A DNA stretch of 64,000 bases from a virus: positions 1 through 64,000 of IMG/VR virus record IMGVR_UViG_3300035034_001216; one strand, 5' to 3'. The stretch's first letter is position 1; the number at the start of each line of letters is the position of its first letter. The translations under genes were made by a program, and so were the position numbers. The notes below the pieces were generated by a model. That model saw only the letters and a list, made by a program, of their open reading frames with translations, searched no databases and was not told the origin of the DNA. Shown here one piece after another: positions 53,517 through 62,689 of the stretch.

Positions 53517-53696
53517 TTATTTTCTCTTTTTCTTGTTAGGAACTCGTTTATAATTTAAATTACATTCCATGCAGTCTACTATAATTGGCGTATTTCCATA
53601 GCCTATATCAACTACTCCACCACCACCACAATTGCCGCATACAAAACCTTTTTTTATCTTTTTTTTACTATTTTCATCAGGCACATCTTGTATCAT
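53517..53696 (-). CDS. Small zinc-ribbon protein (59 aa)
   Basis: A frame from ATG 53696 overlaps the stop of the SF2 helicase gene (TAATG) and encodes a basic 59-residue protein. It contains FVCGNCGGGGV and DCMECNLNYK, so two CxxC pairs are about 20 residues apart. This is a classic zinc ribbon. It could bind nucleic acid or a replication protein. Spacing and cysteines make it a convincing small gene. Confidence 0.8.
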   Translation of the reverse strand: MIQDVPDENSKKKIKKGFVCGNCGGGGVVDIGYGNTPIIVDCMECNLNYKRVPNKKKRK

Positions 53697-54784
53697 TATA
53701 AGTTTTTTTGATTTATATATTCTATGTTTTCAAATGTAGATAGAGCATTATCCACCCATACTTCATCTTGTGTATCTAATACAGATATAATCCATATCAT
53801 AGCTTTGTGATCATCTCTAAGTCTAACTATTCTACCTACTCTTTGTACAAGATCTTTTTCTTTAGAATTAGCTTGTACAATTAAAGCAGCATCTACATTT
53901 GGTATATTTAAACCTTCATTAAGTGCTTTAACACACGACAAACGATTAATTTTACCATCTATAAATGCTTGTAGATCTTTATCATCAGTTTTAGAATGAT
54001 ACCTGTGTTTACAAAGTTCATCTGCTTGTTTAATACTACCACAGAAGATGATTGTGCGTAAATCTTTATCAATATATTGATCTAATATTTTCTTGGCAAG
54101 TTCTGTTTTAGACTCCAAATCATATATAAATCTCATTCTACTCATAGTGGCCCATATAGGATCTTTTCCACCATAACGTAGTATATTAATAAGTCGACTT
54201 AAGTTTTCGTACTTCTTCCGTTCTGTAACATAATAATAATTTCCTTTTTTCCCAGCTTTTACTGATTTATTTTTATGGTCTAAACGAGTTTCTACAACTT
54301 TTATCTCATAAGGTGATACAACTCCGTCTTTTACACCTTCACTTAATGTGTATGTAAATTTTACAGGAGCTATCTTATTAATAATTTCATATTTAATATC
54401 ATCTTCTGGTACAGTTGCTGTTAAACCTATTACTCTTTTAACTTTGTTATTTTTAAAGAATACTACATTATTTTCTGTAATGTTATGTATTTCATCACAT
54501 ATAACTAAATCAAAATCTTCATCTATTACTTTTGCTATGGATGCATAGCAATACCTTTTAATTTTATCATAATATTTTATTGCGTCCCATTTCTCAAACT
54601 CTTCCTTCCAATTATTATCTCTTAATTTAACAGTAGGAACGATAAGAGCTATTGTTTTGGACTTTAATTCTTTTAAAGCCATAATACTGACTCGAGATTT
54701 TCCCGAGCCAGTACACATAGCCAACGTTAATTTATCATTCTCCAGACACTGCTGGAGAGCTTTCTCTTGTACTTCTCTCCTCAT
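53696..54784 (-). CDS. SF2 DNA/RNA helicase (DEAD/DEAH-like)
   Basis: The 362-residue protein has a Q-type start (RREVQEKALQQCL), TGSGKSR at about 25 (motif I), LVICDEIHNI at about 93 (motif II, DEIH), IGLTATVP at about 119 (motif III), and NEGLNIPNV and QRVGRIVRLRD (motifs V and VI). It is a compact two-RecA-domain helicase as found in crAss-like replication modules. Its first 50 bases overlap the end of the upstream glutamine-amidotransferase-like gene; I kept this start because it holds the Q-like motif. Confidence 0.88.
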   Translation of the reverse strand: MRREVQEKALQQCLENDKLTLAMCTGSGKSRVSIMALKELKSKTIALIVPTVKLRDNNWKEEFEKWDAIKYYDKIKRYCYASIAKVIDEDFDLVICDEIHNITENNVVFFKNNKVKRVIGLTATVPEDDIKYEIINKIAPVKFTYTLSEGVKDGVVSPYEIKVVETRLDHKNKSVKAGKKGNYYYVTERKKYENLSRLINILRYGGKDPIWATMSRMRFIYDLESKTELAKKILDQYIDKDLRTIIFCGSIKQADELCKHRYHSKTDDKDLQAFIDGKINRLSCVKALNEGLNIPNVDAALIVQANSKEKDLVQRVGRIVRLRDDHKAMIWIISVLDTQDEVWVDNALSTFENIEYINQKNL

Positions 54785-56252
54785 TTTCTTTCACTTCTTC
54801 AAGGAGTTTGTTTTTAATATAAGTAACTAACTTTTTAACAACTGTATTTACTTTTACTCTTTGTTCTTCAGCAGCGGGTATAATTTCATAGTCACGTTCT
54901 AGTAATATAGAATCTATAACCCTTCTCGAATCTTGAGACTTTTTATCGTCTATAAACATAAACAATCCTAGTTTTAATTTAGTTTCATGACACGAATTAC
55001 ACGGGATTTTGTTATTAAAACCAATAACTTGTTGTGAAACACAACTTTCACATTCAGTCCAATACCAATCAATCCTCTTTCTAGAATCATCTATTGCTGT
55101 TAGAGTATCGACTACAATTTTACCAAGCTTTGTTTCTTCAGCAAAATCTAAATCAAGATATTCTCTTTTAGAAACAAATTGATAAATTCTTTGTCGTATA
55201 GCCATTGTTGTAAAATCTTGTGCTTTTTCTATTTCTTTACAACAACCTTTACTAATACCACATTGATCTCCGTCAAAAGCACTATTACAATGACATGCAA
55301 ATGGATTAACACTTGTAATTATGTTCTTTTTGTAATAAGAATTTTGTAAAGAAGCAGTTCTATAGAAAAACGTAAAAGCTATACTTCTTATAACATCATT
55401 ATCAGGAAAAATATCAACTTGATGAGAATTTGCTTTTGATGCCCATAAATTGGACATATAAACATTCATATTCCTATGTGCTGAATCATTAATACCAGTA
55501 GTACTAGGAGTGCTACGAACATTAGGATGAGTACTTCCAAAATTAGATTGCCTGGGATTGTTGAATGACTGTTCTCTATGTCCCTGATTCCAATTAGTTG
55601 TAGACCTGTGTTTAGTTGGAAATTCATCTTTAAATGAATCATTTGAAAAGTAATAACCTTTATTTGAATCACTCTGTATAAAATTTCCATGCACAACAGC
55701 AGGTCTTCCCGCTTTTAAAACCACTATCTTATTACTCCACCCCATGTCGTAAAAGTCTCTGAATTCATCATCAAAGTGTTTCTTCATGTACTGCATAAAG
55801 GTAAAATCATTTTCTTTTGATAAAAAATGATCTGTAAATAACAAAGTATCAGAAGTATCTTCTTTAGAATTACTAACTTTCATTCTAAACTTACTTATGT
55901 ACCCATTGTGAAATACAACATTGTTCTTAGTTAATATACGTTTTTGTTTGTTTTCATCTTCATTTGATATTATAGGATGTGTTGTTTTTAAATTACTAGC
56001 AGTTCCGGGAGATGAATTTCTTAAGTGTACAACAATTAATTTATCCTTCAACAACCCTTTTCTGTCAAACCAATTTAATGATTTCAACATAGAAGCTGCT
56101 GTTTTAAATCCCTTCTTTACTAGTATATCTTCTTTGTTTTTTATAGCAAAACCAAACCCCGTATTATTTTTAACACTTGAGTTTTCAACACATTTTGTTA
56201 TAAATTCATGATCATATTCACTCGATTGCTTCTTGTATATTATTAGGCACAT
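54735..56252 (-). CDS. Class II glutamine-amidotransferase-like protein with zinc-ribbon cysteines
   Basis: The 505-residue protein begins MCLIIYK, giving Cys2 as the expected N-terminal nucleophile of Ntn-type amidotransferases. VVHLRNSSPGTASNLKTTHP at about 75 and VVFHNGYI at about 114 fit the glutamine-binding part. After about residue 260 it has a separate part with Cys groups (FACHCNSAFDGDQCGISKGCC, then CESCVSQQ and IPCNSCHE) that could bind zinc. It overlaps the amidoligase gene by 35 bases and is the last of six peptide-bond-type genes in order of transcription. It may supply ammonia or trim gamma-glutamyl groups. The domain is well supported; the reaction is not known. Confidence 0.75.
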   Translation of the reverse strand: MCLIIYKKQSSEYDHEFITKCVENSSVKNNTGFGFAIKNKEDILVKKGFKTAASMLKSLNWFDRKGLLKDKLIVVHLRNSSPGTASNLKTTHPIISNEDENKQKRILTKNNVVFHNGYISKFRMKVSNSKEDTSDTLLFTDHFLSKENDFTFMQYMKKHFDDEFRDFYDMGWSNKIVVLKAGRPAVVHGNFIQSDSNKGYYFSNDSFKDEFPTKHRSTTNWNQGHREQSFNNPRQSNFGSTHPNVRSTPSTTGINDSAHRNMNVYMSNLWASKANSHQVDIFPDNDVIRSIAFTFFYRTASLQNSYYKKNIITSVNPFACHCNSAFDGDQCGISKGCCKEIEKAQDFTTMAIRQRIYQFVSKREYLDLDFAEETKLGKIVVDTLTAIDDSRKRIDWYWTECESCVSQQVIGFNNKIPCNSCHETKLKLGLFMFIDDKKSQDSRRVIDSILLERDYEIIPAAEEQRVKVNTVVKKLVTYIKNKLLEEVKENEERSTRESSPAVSGE

Positions 56253-57816
56253 GTATCTTATTGTTTATTTTGTTTCTATGATTTAAAAATTGAGTAAATG
56301 ATAAATTTTCAGGATAAGTATTTTTTCTACCTATCATTGAAATTCTATTATTCATACGATCGTATAACTCATTGTCATAACTTTCAAGTATTATGTCTTT
56401 AACAGTAATCTTATCGGTTGTTAATATTTTGTATGATTTGTTTACTATAAACTTAACAAATGCTTTACAAAATAAAATCCAATCTTCTATTTCTTGATAA
56501 TCAAGACTAGCTTGATATGGTCTAAATTCAAGAGTAAGATATTTATAAGGATATTCTCCTTTTTTATTACTTACACGACCATTTCTCTGATTGAACGTAC
56601 AACTAATTAAATTTAACCATTTATATCTAAATTGTTGTGGAGTAATTTCACCTCTAAAAGGATCTTGATACCTACCACAATAACGATTTCCGGGATGTGG
56701 ATTCTTTTTATTTTGCAAAGAACCTACAAAGTTTCTATCGTATAGCATTTTATCATATAAATAAGAGTAAAAGAAATTGTCTGACATCTTTTTGTTATTA
56801 AACATCTTGTAAGATTTAACTCCTACATTATAATGTTCTTCAAGTAACAAACCACACATGTTATTATTACTCCTTGACTTGTGTAGAAAACCAAACAATT
56901 CATCTTGAATTTTATATCCAAGTATATATGCTAAATTTGTAAACCTTTTACTAAAAACAGTATTACCTACATGAACATGAATTCCACATGTATCATTAGT
57001 AATACATCTTTGGTTTACAACATCTAGTATGTTGTACAAATCATAAAATCCAGAGTCCTTATTTAAAATGCCAGTAACATATTCTCCACCAGTTATAGAT
57101 CCATCTCTTGAACATTCAACATCTACATTTCTTAGTTTAAATAAGTTTGAACTTATAGATCCCGCAGATGTTTCTATTTCTACTCCAAAAGTTAAATCGT
57201 CTTTTGATATTGAATTAAGATTACTCTCTTTTCTATTAAACTTAGAAACATTACACCTTAGATAATTTCCTTGAAGTGCTTGATCACGTTTAGCCCATTC
57301 TGATTTATATTCAGACATACTGACAATTCTTCCCGGTTCAGATAAAAGCTCTTTAAAACCAAACTTTTCAATTTGATCATGTCTCATTACTATTAATGAA
57401 TTTTTATGAGAAACTTTTATTAAAATACCCATTAATTCAGAAATATAAAATCGATCTTTATTACTGAACTTTTCATTTGAGTAATCATTTTTAAAACTAG
57501 CTTTTATATCATGAAATACTTCATTAATCAACATTTTATCTACAAGAGATACCTTTAAATTACTGGTATGAATTAATTGTTTATTCCCATCTTTGTCTAT
57601 GAACTTTAACAAGCTTAGCCTTTTTGTTTCTTGTTCTTTATCTGTAGCATGATCCATTGTGAACATGCCTTTTTTGTATAATTTATAACCTTCTGATGTT
57701 TTGATTATTCTTTTGTCATCCTTTTTATAAAACGTGCCTTTTATTCTCACATAATCATTGGGATTTTTAAGAATATCATTATTAATATCTAGGTTCCCTA
57801 TGTTGGCAACTTTCAT
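56218..57816 (-). CDS. Phage amidoligase (glutamine-synthetase-like fold, PF12224 type)
   Basis: The 532-residue protein has a middle domain typical of the amidoligase family: LTFGVEIETSAG at about 205, SRDGSITGGEYVTG at about 230, and TNDTCGIHVHVG at about 270. The E, E and HVH residues would bind ATP-metal in the glutamine-synthetase-like pocket. Such enzymes join a carboxylate to an amine. The N-terminal 200 residues are separate and may bind a substrate; the C-terminal part has FRPYQASLDYQEIEDW. It lies between two amidotransferase-like genes, overlapping both. Confidence 0.85.
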   Translation of the reverse strand: MKVANIGNLDINNDILKNPNDYVRIKGTFYKKDDKRIIKTSEGYKLYKKGMFTMDHATDKEQETKRLSLLKFIDKDGNKQLIHTSNLKVSLVDKMLINEVFHDIKASFKNDYSNEKFSNKDRFYISELMGILIKVSHKNSLIVMRHDQIEKFGFKELLSEPGRIVSMSEYKSEWAKRDQALQGNYLRCNVSKFNRKESNLNSISKDDLTFGVEIETSAGSISSNLFKLRNVDVECSRDGSITGGEYVTGILNKDSGFYDLYNILDVVNQRCITNDTCGIHVHVGNTVFSKRFTNLAYILGYKIQDELFGFLHKSRSNNNMCGLLLEEHYNVGVKSYKMFNNKKMSDNFFYSYLYDKMLYDRNFVGSLQNKKNPHPGNRYCGRYQDPFRGEITPQQFRYKWLNLISCTFNQRNGRVSNKKGEYPYKYLTLEFRPYQASLDYQEIEDWILFCKAFVKFIVNKSYKILTTDKITVKDIILESYDNELYDRMNNRISMIGRKNTYPENLSFTQFLNHRNKINNKIHVPNNIQEAIE

Positions 57817-59720
57817 ACTATTTCTTTTTTCTCTTTTATAGCGAGTAAGGATCGTTCATAAATTGTATTATTCCTTAGTCGCTGGTTATTAATAAAGTTT
57901 AACATTCGATTTAACTTTTCTGATGAAACTGTAGATAAAGAATCTGAAGCAATGTCACTAAGACCGTTTTCTAATTCTTTAAAAAAGCTCTTAAAAGATA
58001 TTCCACCAAATATAGCATCAAGACGTAACTGATGTTCCCAGATAGCATTATCTCTAAAACTATCTAATTCAAACTCATTGTCTAGATTTTCAGCAAAGTT
58101 TTCGTATTCCTCTGTAAGCTTTCTGACATATGCAACGTTTGTAAGCAAATCTTTAGCTGATACATTCATTGTAATATGACGATAATCCAGATGATAAGGA
58201 GTTACAAGAACTTTTCCTGAAGTAAACCTTTTTCTTATTGAACATTTTATGAATTTATCATCAATTAACAAGATACCAGTAGAAAGCTTAGTGGGTTTTA
58301 TTTCCTCACCTTCTTCTTGAAATAATTTTTCAAGTTCTTTTTGTCTTTTCTCCTTTACAAACGGAGATAAGCTTTGTGTAGATTTAAAAGGAATTAAACT
58401 TGTTTGTTTTTTACTAGTCAAATTGTTTTCAATTTCTTTACTAGCTTTTTCATCTAAGAATTTAATAAAACTAGGTGCTATAAATTCTTCAATCTTCAAG
58501 TCTTTACCGCATACACTTTTTATTTCTAATTCAGAAGATGCTTCGGAGATAGTCATTTTATGTTTACGTTCGAAATTCTTAGCAAACGTTTCATCTATTT
58601 TAATAAATATATGTAAATGACTATCTTTTTCATCACCAGTATGAAAATTTAAATATCCTACTAGAACATCTAATTTCTTATCTTGAAATGCAAAGAAATT
58701 GGTAAAATTAAACCTTCTATAATCACTTGTTAAGAAACCTATATGGTCACCGCCTTTTGATTGAGAGAATATAAAACTAACATTGTCTTGATAATTTTTA
58801 ACAAGTCGTTTATGTTCTTCAATCAATTTAAAAGGAATAAATAATTTACTACCTTTAAATTCAGTTTCAATATATTTTTCCCTCGTATTTATTGTTTTTA
58901 CCTCCCCGATTTCTTTTAGTGTAACGGATATTTCTTCCTCCAAGATCAACGCGTCCTGTACCGTCGTATTGTACTGTTTGCTTGTTTCGCTGGACGCGGG
59001 TGACTTTTTTGCTGGTTCAGGCTTTTTCCAAGGACTTCTTGTAATCTTCTGAAAAGAAAGTAATTCTCCATCTTTATAAGTATAAAGCTGATATTTATCA
59101 AGTTCTTTGATATTTTTACAACCTATTGACTGTAACGGATGACCTTCTGAAGAGAAATATAAACCTTCTTCTCGTTCTCCAACATGAAGAGGTCTTCCAT
59201 CATCATGATATACATGAAGAGTTCCATCTTTCTTAATAGCCATCATAGCTATAGCACCTTCATACACTTCAAGAACTTCTTTGAAATCCTCATTATTAAA
59301 TAGTTTGTATAAAAGTCTTGAATCAGATATATCTTTTCCTAAACTATTACGTTTTGGAATGTCAGTATTCTTTTCTGCAAACTTATCATACATATATTCA
59401 TGATTCAACAAAGTACCATTATGTACACCTGATATGTGTTCACCAATAAAAGGATGAGCATTAGCTATTGTATTTTGACCTACTGTTTTGGCTCTTGTAT
59501 GACCTATGAATATATTTCTGTCATCATGTATCTCTGGGTTATTTACGTTATATTGAAAACCTGATATAATGTCTTTATGCATAAAGAAATCGTTATCTTT
59601 TAAAGTTAAGATTCCTGTTGAATCATAACCTCTAGATACATTATATAGGCAAAGTAATTTTAATGCATTACTATTTGCTTGTTTGTCTTTTTTTCCTATG
59701 AAACCATAGATACCACACAT
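57813..59720 (-). CDS. Class II glutamine amidotransferase (GlmS/PurF/AsnB-like N-terminal domain)
   Basis: The 635-residue protein starts MCGIYGFIGK with Cys2 as nucleophile. RGYDSTG at 30-36, GHTRAKTVG at 73-81 and GVHNGTL at 98-104 complete the class II glutaminase site that releases ammonia from glutamine. The synthetase domain of GlmS or AsnB is absent. Instead there is a long (about 400-residue) charged C-terminal part with no motif I know, in which Lys/Ser-rich segments occur. Neighbouring amidoligase and ATP-grasp ligase genes are likely partners that use the ammonia or act on the amide product. It overlaps the amidoligase gene by 4 bases. Confidence 0.85.
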   Translation of the reverse strand: MCGIYGFIGKKDKQANSNALKLLCLYNVSRGYDSTGILTLKDNDFFMHKDIISGFQYNVNNPEIHDDRNIFIGHTRAKTVGQNTIANAHPFIGEHISGVHNGTLLNHEYMYDKFAEKNTDIPKRNSLGKDISDSRLLYKLFNNEDFKEVLEVYEGAIAMMAIKKDGTLHVYHDDGRPLHVGEREEGLYFSSEGHPLQSIGCKNIKELDKYQLYTYKDGELLSFQKITRSPWKKPEPAKKSPASSETSKQYNTTVQDALILEEEISVTLKEIGEVKTINTREKYIETEFKGSKLFIPFKLIEEHKRLVKNYQDNVSFIFSQSKGGDHIGFLTSDYRRFNFTNFFAFQDKKLDVLVGYLNFHTGDEKDSHLHIFIKIDETFAKNFERKHKMTISEASSELEIKSVCGKDLKIEEFIAPSFIKFLDEKASKEIENNLTSKKQTSLIPFKSTQSLSPFVKEKRQKELEKLFQEEGEEIKPTKLSTGILLIDDKFIKCSIRKRFTSGKVLVTPYHLDYRHITMNVSAKDLLTNVAYVRKLTEEYENFAENLDNEFELDSFRDNAIWEHQLRLDAIFGGISFKSFFKELENGLSDIASDSLSTVSSEKLNRMLNFINNQRLRNNTIYERSLLAIKEKKEIV

Positions 59721-59738
59721 ATTATGTTATTTTAATTA

Positions 59739-60152
59739 TTAATAATACTTATTTTTGTAATCTGAAAAATCTCCTGTAGGTACTGCATCTCCTTGTATTC
59801 CATTATGGTTTAAGAAATACATCCATGCCTCTTCAACGTCGCCATGTTCACTATCATCGAGGACGATCTGTGTCATCTTACGAGTGTAAAAGTCTGGATG
59901 ACCTTCAAGACCGTCTAAAGGACCTAATAATGTTGATTCTTCTACTTCATATAGTTCTCCAACTATAGTAGAGTCATTACCATCATTCAATTCTTGACTT
60001 ACAAATGGAAAACCACCACTTCTCATATTAAAAGTGCCTACTGTTTTTCCTTTCCCCATAAATTTCAGGTTGGGGGCACCTGCTAAGCAAGCGTTATGAT
60101 TTCCATAACCCTTGCGAAGCGTACCGTATACAAATACTTTTTGTCTACTCAT
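59739..60152 (-). CDS. Gamma-glutamylcyclotransferase-like protein (AIG2/BtrG family)
   Basis: The 137-residue protein has FVYGTLRKGYGNH at residues 7-19, the nucleotide-free glutamyl-binding YGTLR loop, and LDGLEGHPDFYTRKM at about 77-92 with the catalytic Glu. Such enzymes release gamma-linked glutamyl groups as 5-oxoproline (pyroglutamate). In operons with ATP-grasp and amidoligase genes the family is thought to remove a protecting gamma-glutamyl group, as BtrG does in butirosin biosynthesis. It lies 1 base from the ATP-grasp gene. Confidence 0.88.
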   Translation of the reverse strand: MSRQKVFVYGTLRKGYGNHNACLAGAPNLKFMGKGKTVGTFNMRSGGFPFVSQELNDGNDSTIVGELYEVEESTLLGPLDGLEGHPDFYTRKMTQIVLDDSEHGDVEEAWMYFLNHNGIQGDAVPTGDFSDYKNKYY

Positions 60153-60153
60153 A

Positions 60154-61116
60154 TTAAAGTTTACTGTTAATAATTTCTGGCATAGCTTCTACGTATGCCT
60201 TTAGTGTTCCATCACCAAATGAAGGTGATGAGTTAATTTCAACGATAAAGAATTTAGGATCTTTACGTTTGTTTCCTTTGTACATGCTACCTTGAACACG
60301 TACATCTACCGCACCAATATCAAGTCCTACCGCTTTAAGACTTTTCTTAGACTCGTTTACAATCTTATCCCAGTTTACAGGACGATCGAACGCAGGGTTA
60401 TCTTCTGTATACCATACACTATTACTATCATTACGATAGAAACGTTCATCTTCATGTGTATCAGATTTCAACATTTTTCTGTTGGTGTAAATTACACCAT
60501 TTTCAGAAACGTGAATTCTATACTCACGTAAATAGTTATGATACTTTTCAAACAAGTAACCACCAATCCCAATATTAGTATCTTTGATACCCATATCTTC
60601 ATGATCTTTGAATTGTTGGAAGTTGGTACAGAAAGTCTCAAGCTCATCTACTGTTTCAAATAAAACAATACCAAGACCTTTAGAACCTTTACGTACTTTA
60701 CCAATAAATGGTGCTCCAATCTCTTCTAGTTGTTTTTTGGAAAGAAGAGTATCTTTACCTCTAAGATCTGTACTAAGATTGTTAGGATTTGAAGCATTTA
60801 ACTTATGAAAAGTTCCATTTGTAATGTTAAATGTAAATGCTTCCGCAGTAATAACTTTATCTCTGTTGAAACAAGCTTTCATTCTAAACTTATCAGAAGC
60901 ATTATCTGTAGCCTGAACACTGTTAAGAATTAAACGTTTGTGACCATCAGTATATTGATATCTTGATCCAAACATTATGCTTACTCTTTGAGGAAAAGTA
61001 ATACCACTTTTCTTCATTGCATCTTGCAATTGTTTGTTTGAGTTTTTAGATCTTACAACTGGTGCAAATTCTCTATTTTTTCTTACTTTATTATGAATAC
61101 TTTTAAATCTAGTCAT
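60154..61116 (-). CDS. ATP-grasp ligase (COOH-NH2 ligase type)
   Basis: The 320-residue protein has an ATP-grasp core: GAPFIGKVRKGSKGLGI at 134-150 (phosphate-binding loop), GGYLFEKYH at 185-193, LREYRIHV at 196-203, AVDVRVQG near 270 and FIVEINSSPSFG at 290-301 (metal-binding E and N). Such enzymes activate a carboxylate as acyl phosphate and join it to an amine. In this block it stands between the GGCT-like and the COOH-NH2 ligase genes. The first 130 residues would form the N-terminal pre-ATP-grasp domain. It may add amino acids to a peptide or protein. Confidence 0.87.
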   Translation of the reverse strand: MTRFKSIHNKVRKNREFAPVVRSKNSNKQLQDAMKKSGITFPQRVSIMFGSRYQYTDGHKRLILNSVQATDNASDKFRMKACFNRDKVITAEAFTFNITNGTFHKLNASNPNNLSTDLRGKDTLLSKKQLEEIGAPFIGKVRKGSKGLGIVLFETVDELETFCTNFQQFKDHEDMGIKDTNIGIGGYLFEKYHNYLREYRIHVSENGVIYTNRKMLKSDTHEDERFYRNDSNSVWYTEDNPAFDRPVNWDKIVNESKKSLKAVGLDIGAVDVRVQGSMYKGNKRKDPKFFIVEINSSPSFGDGTLKAYVEAMPEIINSKL

Positions 61117-61128
61117 TTTGTTTATTTT

Positions 61129-61905
61129 TTAAGCGTTAATTTCTTGAACTTCTTGGATTGTTGTTTCTTCTTTAACTTGAGTTGTTTGAAAACTATCAAA
61201 TACGATCTTTTCGTATTTTTCTCCCAAGTATTTTTTATAATTGTTTACTACTTCTTGAACAATATCATATACTCTACCCATTTTTACAATATCTTTTAAC
61301 CAAAAGTTAGATAGAGATCTGTATTCAAATCCGTAGTCTTTAAATCTGAATCTTCCGGGTGTACCATAGATATCTTTTCTTGATTGGTTGTTATCTTCTC
61401 TAACTACCATATCTAAAAATAGATAATCCATTGCTTTAACCATATCTACCACCACATCCATATCTTCTGATAATTCGGGTGGTAGCCCTACATGGACATG
61501 CCCACCTGCGTATCTTACACCATCTTTGAATTCAATCTTAGGATTTTCATTCTTAGTGTAAGCTGATAAATCAGGATCACATCCTATTTCCCAGTCATGA
61601 TCTTCTTTTAAGTCTTCTTTCTCAAAAGTCATAGAAGGTACAACTGATAGAAAATCATCTCCAATAATATCTTGCAGCTTTGATTTTCCTACAAGAATAT
61701 TATTTATGAATCCTTTTTTACTAGTAGCAGGTGGTATATTCAATTCTAACATTACATTGTCAGCATGAACAGCATATCCATTTTTTAAATCTTCAACATC
61801 GTCTTTTGTTCCCGGTGTAAAATCTGCTGCTTTTTTTCCTTTCTGTGTATCTCTTCCTAAAATAAAAAATTCAGGATCAGTTCCTATTGTAAAGGATCTA
61901 TTCAT
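61129..61905 (-). CDS. COOH-NH2 ligase (amidoligase type 2, PF14395-like)
   Basis: The 258-residue protein shows the phage-type COOH-NH2 ligase sequence: IGTDPEFF at 7-14, PGTK at 31-34, ADNVMLELNIPPA at 48-60, IGCDPDLSAY at 107-116, RYAGGHVHVGLP at 131-142 and FEYRSLSNFWL at 192-202. These correspond to the glutamine-synthetase-like catalytic core with metal-binding Glu and His. The family is expected to join an amine to a carboxylate with ATP. It is the first gene of the amidoligase cluster in transcription order, following the polymerase end by 19 bases. Confidence 0.9.
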   Translation of the reverse strand: MNRSFTIGTDPEFFILGRDTQKGKKAADFTPGTKDDVEDLKNGYAVHADNVMLELNIPPATSKKGFINNILVGKSKLQDIIGDDFLSVVPSMTFEKEDLKEDHDWEIGCDPDLSAYTKNENPKIEFKDGVRYAGGHVHVGLPPELSEDMDVVVDMVKAMDYLFLDMVVREDNNQSRKDIYGTPGRFRFKDYGFEYRSLSNFWLKDIVKMGRVYDIVQEVVNNYKKYLGEKYEKIVFDSFQTTQVKEETTIQEVQEINA

Positions 61906-61924: not shown

Positions 61925-62689
61925 TTATTTAATAGGGTTAACTATTTTTTCAACTTCATTGATATAATAATTATAATTGACATCATAATCTAAAAAATCA
62001 ACTTGTTGAAAAAATTTATTAAAATAAGTAACAAGATATTTACTTTCTACTTCAAAAGATCTGTCATCTACAAATACACCATCAAATAGCGTATTCTCAT
62101 ATACAGATTCTTTCCCTTCAAGAGGTGGCATTTTCTTTATTAGTTTTTTACCATGATTAGAAATATAATACCTTACTGTTTTACTAGCTTTCTCTACTGT
62201 TTTATCAGAACTTAAAACATCTTTTAAAATGTAATGAGATCCTTTATTAGATTTAACTGCTTTACAAAAGTCATATATGTCGTCACATTCATAAATAGTC
62301 TTTTTATAGTCTATATTATGAACGTAATAATCATATATTGCCTTTGCTACAATTATCATAGAATGATTCTTATGAGGCTCACGGTTATAATCATACCAAC
62401 CTTTAAGTTTCACTCTATCGTCTACTTTTTCATTTCCAGTTTTGATTGCTAGGTAATTATTTACATTACTCATAACAAGTAAGTCATAAAACGTTTCTTC
62501 TAAAACAAATTTCGTTTTATTTTCCCATTGTCTTTGTAATGATCTAAATTCATCTAACCTTTCTTTACTAAATAGTACAACTACACCATCAGTATTAGCA
62601 GATAAAACAGAAAATCCTGATATATCAAGATCTTCTATAAGCATTAACAATGATAATTGACCAATAGTGGTCGTTTGGATTGTTACTAC
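61925..62689 (-). CDS. Family B DNA polymerase, C-terminal exon (gene interrupted)
   Basis: The coding frame includes TTTIGQLSLLMLIEDLD, the start of the palm segment, then SANTDGVVVLF (motif C with the catalytic Asp), NVNNYLAIKTG, VKLKGWYDYN, HKNHSMIIVAKAIYDYYV and a terminal helix: the C-terminal half of a phage family B polymerase. The segment upstream of TTG 62650 and ATG 62644 remains open and conserved back to a TAA at 62690-62692, with no start codon that would include it. The rest of the polymerase (exonuclease domain and motifs A and B) is not present to the right within 1.3 kb. It is therefore probably the last exon of a split gene, rather than an independent short protein. Confidence 0.72.
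   Translation of the reverse strand, partial: VVTIQTTTIGQLSLLMLIEDLDISGFSVLSANTDGVVVLFSKERLDEFRSLQRQWENKTKFVLEETFYDLLVMSNVNNYLAIKTGNEKVDDRVKLKGWYDYNREPHKNHSMIIVAKAIYDYYVHNIDYKKTIYECDDIYDFCKAVKSNKGSHYILKDVLSSDKTVEKASKTVRYYISNHGKKLIKKMPPLEGKESVYENTLFDGVFVDDRSFEVESKYLVTYFNKFFQQVDFLDYDVNYNYYINEVEKIVNPIK

Follow-up and report, generated by a model that had tools for sequence, protein, structure and literature searches.

What could a virus make with a row of six genes whose products belong to families that form and cleave amide bonds? The question is raised by a stretch of 64,000 nucleotides (the window; positions 1 to 64,000 of IMG/VR virus record IMGVR_UViG_3300035034_001216, a 72.5-kb viral fragment), in which a model's reading of the DNA alone (the original prediction) had placed an amidoligase gene cluster at 54735-61905. 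Its six adjacent open reading frames (ORFs) were confirmed there, on the minus strand; they are co-directional and coupled, run head to tail from 61905 to 54735, and are separated, in gene order, by 12, 1, 18, −4, and −35 bp:

61129..61905, minus strand: COOH-NH2 ligase of the GS-fold type, 258 amino acids (aa) (PF14395, 3.1e-11; phrog_3815, 3.5e-54)
60154..61116, minus strand: RimK-like ATP-grasp ligase, 320 aa (phrog_2599, "S6 glutaminyl transferase", 1.8e-26; TIGR00768)
59739..60152, minus strand: gamma-glutamyl(amine) cyclotransferase of the GGACT family, 137 aa (PF06094, 7.5e-22)
57813..59720, minus strand: class II glutamine amidotransferase, 635 aa (PF13522 GATase_6, 1.2e-11; phrog_4736, 1e-25)
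56218..57816, minus strand: Amidoligase_2, 532 aa (PF12224, 1.3e-7, which passes the cut-off; phrog_2443, 6.8e-13)
54735..56252, minus strand: predicted second class II glutaminase (P1) with a GATase_4/EgtC-like N-terminal domain, 505 aa (placed by fold, residues, and homologues; C-terminal part unassigned)

The enzyme families that had been named were recovered, five by matches to Pfam, PHROGs, or NCBIfam and the sixth by fold, invariant residues, and homologues, leaving no gene unplaced, and the catalytic or other key motifs described as visible were located in all six proteins. Hydropathy revealed neither a signal peptide nor a membrane segment in any of the six, all of which appear to be cytoplasmic.

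Judged from sequence, the cluster is a crAss-like member of a known phage amidoligase cassette, and its kind is not new. For its function, we give a probability of about 50% to a virus-specific cytoplasmic pathway in which amide bonds are formed by ATP-dependent ligases and trimmed by gamma-glutamyl-amide hydrolases. We prefer a gamma-glutamyl conjugate pathway because two GS-fold ligases occur together with up to four enzymes belonging to gamma-glutamyl-amide-cleaving families. The PF14395 and PF12224 GS-fold ligases would activate a carboxyl group, most probably glutamate's gamma-carboxyl, and couple an amine to it. A further amino acid would be attached by the RimK-like ATP-grasp protein, and the GGACT-type cyclotransferase and the glutaminases would then free the intermediate of its gamma-glutamyl group, the second glutaminase acting specifically as partner of the PF12224 amidoligase. 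In mid-infection this would yield a conjugate of amino-acid or peptide-like nature, for which a host peptide, an envelope precursor, or a protein would be a likelier acceptor than DNA. Protection and deprotection by gamma-glutamylation are known from PuuA/PuuD, BtrJ/BtrG, and EgtA/EgtC, each combining an ATP-dependent ligase with a gamma-glutamyl amide hydrolase or cyclotransferase; the likeness is one of analogy only, and by curated cut-offs the window proteins are not members of these systems. Nevertheless, the ligate-then-remove logic, which the original prediction had already proposed, is supported at the level of the predicted enzyme families.

The motifs of the individual enzymes bear out these assignments. 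The PF14395 ligase carries IGTDPE, ELN, GGHVHVG, and EYR, largely invariant across five phages, and the PF12224 amidoligase carries GVEIE, HVHVG, and LEFR. The ATP-grasp protein had no Pfam match and reached the RimK family TIGR00768 at 2.2e-7, which is under the family cut-off; its residues D271, E293, and N295 are invariant, and it shares 37% identity over 99% of its length with the protein of Cellulophaga phage phi14:2. The closest solved structures of the cyclotransferase are those of AIG2-like domain protein 1, which we take to be GGACT; it contains VYGTLR and GLE, and the Glu of GLE, presumably the catalytic Glu of GGACT, aligns with a Glu of 2kl2/1vkb. The GATase_6 profile matches the glutaminase domains of PurF/GlmS (best 1e-18), and C2, R76, N101-G102, and D133 are invariant; the unassigned C-terminal region of this protein (∼400 aa) has a predicted structure with a pLDDT under 50.

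The sixth protein was harder to place. It has no Pfam or PHROG match of its own, and tblastn returned no match in 50,697 phage records and, in IMG/VR, none besides a further fragment of this virus; its family was reached via the neighbourhoods of other cassettes, that is, from proteins encoded in the same position. In an alignment of 16 members, Cys2, His76, Arg78, His115-Asn116-Gly117, and Asp135 are invariant. The AlphaFold2 model reaches confidence only over residues 1-210, a part that matched the GlmS glutaminase domain (Z 12.8, rmsd 4.3, 181 residues aligned), EgtC (Z 12.0, rmsd 4.1, 177 aligned), and also PurF; the Foldseek match of this N-terminal model was 3.7e-6. With Z-scores that are effectively tied, the fold is as close to EgtC as to GlmS. 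PF13230 (GATase_4) was matched by 10 of the 16 alignment members (best 3.3e-5), and the best NCBIfam match of the window protein, a weak one, was EgtC (0.028). A tree of glutaminase domains (n = 28) set the sixth-gene family apart from the GATase_6 proteins of the same operons with 100/100 support, which indicates two different families rather than a recent duplication. An early profile comparison of both glutaminases had been weak (probability 9.6) and was replaced by fold, alignment, and tree. From the model and the alignment, the sixth protein is thus assigned as a class II glutaminase, nearer to GATase_4/EgtC than to GATase_6/7: the class originally predicted stood for both glutaminases, with this correction of family for the second. 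EgtC is a gamma-glutamyl amide hydrolase, and in GlmS, residues of the Cys/Arg/Asn-Gly/Asp type read the alpha-amino and alpha-carboxyl groups of glutamine. Because the glutamine-recognition residues are invariant in both glutaminases, both should still bind gamma-glutamyl substrates.

How constant the cassette is was assessed with two IMG/VR scans (using the ATP-grasp and PF14395 alignments) and a set of named phages, together yielding 145 usable loci, 120 of them distinct; a DNA-level search for the cluster across 50,697 phage records had given no match, and all comparisons were therefore made at the protein level. Gene frequencies were counted over the 76 loci with room on both sides, where a gene scored as missing may lie beyond the stretch fetched. 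GATase_6 and PF12224 were present in 75 of 76 each, PF14395 in 74 and ATP-grasp in 70 (these two counts are inflated, as their profiles recruited the loci; those of the other four genes are not), a class I GATase in 62, and GGCT in 47. GATase_6 lay directly upstream of PF12224 in 58 adjacencies. The exact six-gene order recurred in five other distinct viral contigs (L019, L024, L032, L075, and L082) and is not peculiar to this assembly; in all five, a class I GATase precedes the cassette. The window's 72.5-kb record, itself incomplete, yielded no class I glutaminase (Peptidase_C26 type), and the cluster can therefore not be called complete, as it had been. The PF14395 ligase appears almost confined to viruses: 425 viral stretches matched it, whereas the 84,980 genomes of bacteria and archaea gave just 7 matches, every one on a contig of a metagenome-assembled genome. 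Primase/helicase genes flank the cassette in LUZ24, a Zobellviridae phage, Escherichia phage Bas89, phi14:2, and cr108_1; placement in a replication block, originally thought striking, is the rule. The hosts span Bacteroidota, Proteobacteria, and cyanobacteria. The genes travelling with the cassette are replication genes, homing endonucleases, and unassigned families; a search for cassette-linked genes revealed no obvious acceptor protein, and transporters, hydrolases, and surface proteins are not among the regular members.

Other proteins were encountered in or near these loci. An uncharacterised one resembling phrog_4877 (∼190-250 aa) is encoded inside podophage-type cassettes beside PF12224 (L005:8170-8739 and 47 other ORFs), occurs together with the class I glutaminase in 38 loci, and was not found in the window. 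Divergent, unassigned proteins of ∼280-330 aa, which may be one fast-evolving family, often lie between ATP-grasp and the class I glutaminase (L003:8749-9738, in 16 loci; L011:10857-11714; L042:10635-11492; L051:4182-5039). Radical-SAM-like proteins (GYGCxxxCxYCYM) are encoded several kb upstream of cassettes with the second glutaminase (L019:783-1646, L032:736-1605, and L067:1995-2855).

Cassettes of this kind have been described before. PF14395, PF12224, GATase_6, ATP-grasp, and AIG2/GGCT lie beside primase/helicase in the LUZ24-like phage UFV-P2 (PMC3890496), and a seven-gene "peptidoglycan modification cassette", for which blocking of superinfection was proposed, was reported in RIO-1, phiEco32, 7-11, PA11, tf, MR299-2, LUZ24, PaP3, and CW02 (PMC5498523). 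The podophage cassette of RIO-1, phiEco32, LUZ24, PaP3, and tf shares with the window five families encoded on one strand and adjoining primase/helicase. The window thus has the cassette core, namely PF14395 and PF12224, the RimK-like ATP-grasp, a class II GATase, GGACT, and the location among replication genes; it differs in that the amidoligase is followed by a second class II glutaminase and that a recognisable class I glutaminase is lacking. The cluster is also already in databases for crAss-like phages, as phi14:2 and the uncultured phage cr108_1 (both Crassvirales, Steigviridae) carry it: phi14:2 has GGCT, ATP-grasp, PF14395, GATase_6, and PF12224 in a row beside primase, and cr108_1 has a similar gene set and a class I glutaminase. 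Both differ from the window in gene order, in a uracil-DNA glycosylase gene after PF12224, and in having no second class II glutaminase there.

What the analysis adds is that the amidoligase and the second glutaminase stand alone as a pair in unrelated phages, and that PF14395 is nearly virus-only. The sixth-gene family directly follows the PF12224 amidoligase in 18 of 19 distinct loci. The OM43 phages MEP401/402 carry an amidoligase and a GATase, and mycobacteriophage Marvin is cited in the same work (PMC10580990); like the window, Marvin and MEP401/402 encode a PF12224-type protein and then a glutaminase of the sixth-gene family, the Marvin pair being gp105 and gp106. The pair was also found in a Christensenellales phage, where three small ORFs intervene. 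The Marvin and MEP402 amidoligases score just under the Pfam cut-off. Unlike in the window, PF14395, GGACT, and ATP-grasp were not detected in the genomes of Marvin, MEP402, or the Christensenellales phage, in a search whose PF14395 control recovered its target in seven of seven positive records. Occurrence of the pair without these three suggests that amidoligase and second glutaminase function together as a unit. A more tentative extension is that the pair may be an independent mobile phage unit catalyzing one undescribed reaction; its union with the classic cassette, in one branch that takes in crAss-like as well as other phages, would have lengthened the pathway and led to a product of novel chemistry on a molecule of the host or the phage.

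Several points weigh against the gamma-glutamyl conjugate pathway. No cassette member has a known substrate, product, or phenotype; two of the gene counts are inflated; GGCT is missing from 29 of the 76 loci, which makes the cyclotransferase an accessory rather than an obligatory step; and the models do not reach ∼400 aa of GATase_6 and ∼290 aa of the sixth protein, where another activity could reside. Moreover, adjacency and overlap of glutaminases and amidoligase fit a supply of ammonia equally well. In this main mechanistic rival, a tentative but real possibility that is compatible with several targets, the two class II glutaminases would feed PF12224, which would convert a carboxyl into an amide on a host or phage molecule, much as GatD does for MurT. 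It would account for the gene order, with GATase_6 directly before PF12224 (58 adjacencies) and the second glutaminase directly after it (18 of 19 distinct loci), for the overlaps of 4 and 35 bp around PF12224 in the window, for the pair standing alone in Marvin, MEP402, and the Christensenellales phage, and for the retained glutamine-binding residues. However, it has no need for a cyclotransferase, two suppliers plus the class I enzyme look redundant, and the characterised free-standing GATase_4-type proteins, EgtC and Dug3, hydrolyze gamma-glutamyl amides.

The remaining alternatives differ mainly in the molecule modified. That groups are added to and removed from stem-peptide carboxyls of peptidoglycan precursors, thereby blocking superinfection, is the published hypothesis for RIO-1-, phiEco32-, and LUZ24-like phages (PMC5498523), and the apparently cytoplasmic location of all six proteins is where lipid-II precursors are synthesized. 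We nevertheless regard it as somewhat doubtful: no experimental test was found in the literature searched, no transporter, hydrolase, or surface protein belongs regularly to the module, and its hosts are as diverse as Bacteroidota, Proteobacteria, and cyanobacteria, the amidoligase pair reaching even mycobacteria. In addition, the cassette genes of the LUZ24-like phage PaP3 are middle genes, of one class with replication and not the earliest (the module position was taken from the PaP3p44 and PaP3p47 homologues in PMC3890496). This timing fits an intracellular role during replication, and fits envelope, protein, and metabolite targets alike. Tagging of a protein, with the RimK-like ATP-grasp and GS-fold ligases adding glutamate or a short peptide and the hydrolases editing it, would suit an ATP-grasp of the RimK alpha-L-glutamate ligase family and agrees with the general prediction of peptide or protein tagging that Iyer and colleagues (2009) reportedly made for such enzyme sets; the operon, with gaps of ≤18 bp, encodes no conserved acceptor protein or carrier, and we consider tagging doubtful. 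Help with the host's assimilation of ammonia and amino acids, an auxiliary nitrogen metabolism as put forward for the genes of Phage-ZRK32 (PMC10945688), is unlikely: PF14395 is nearly absent from cellular genomes, unlike host-derived metabolic genes, and assimilation would not require as many as two amidoligases and two to four hydrolases. Least probable is modification of DNA bases by amide chemistry. The genes do lie inside a replication block, but DNA of the cassette-bearing phage tf is cut by RsaI, HpaI, EcoRV, SmaI, and HaeIII, and the scanned window proteins included no recognisable DNA hypermodification enzyme. The sensitivity of phage tf DNA to five restriction enzymes thus disfavors DNA as the target, including the nucleobase amide of the original prediction.

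The virus itself is crAss-like by its protein matches, as had been predicted. A 1443-aa protein is a homologue of the crAss-like stabilization/virion protein, with matches in crAss-like phages; a virion protein and the replicative helicase point the same way, and L032 and L082 come from records that likewise encode a homologue of the crAss stabilization protein. Terminase large subunit (TerL), portal, and major capsid protein had no match among the ORFs scanned of the 72.5-kb fragment, and no family within Crassvirales was therefore assigned. The neighbours of the cluster are replication genes, namely a helicase, a DnaB-like helicase, Sak4, and DNA polymerase. The nearest, downstream and outside the cassette, overlaps the sixth gene by 50 bp:

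53696..54784, minus strand: helicase (ResIII/Helicase_C; phrog_16, 2e-39)

The DNA polymerase is split between two ORFs (window 61925-62650 and record 65185-66339, the latter L008:2185-3339), which cover phrog_1252 profile positions 52-425 and 438-651 and are separated by ∼2.5 kb with four ORFs; an Rfam intron search of the window found none. Regions upstream of the six genes are A/T-rich and have no clear Shine-Dalgarno sequence, as expected for a Bacteroidota host. A PADLOC anti-defence search gave no match for any of the six proteins. A weak match to the twister-P1 ribozyme (L008:9334-9385, record 72334-72385, minus strand; 30.8 bits, E 0.0018), far below the family gathering score, is probably due to chance or a divergent element.

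What makes the cluster interesting, then, is its unsolved function and the small amidoligase/glutaminase unit rather than the fact that a crAss-like phage carries it. With their two-gene pair, Marvin and MEP402 offer a far smaller starting point than the whole cassette, five of whose six genes are carried by the cultivated phages phi14:2 and LUZ24. The cassette would represent a pathway of six to seven enzymes that is nearly virus-only and widespread among phages whose hosts differ greatly. Knowledge of its chemistry would show what many unrelated phages, including the crAss-like phages of the human gut, gain from ∼7 kb of their genomes.

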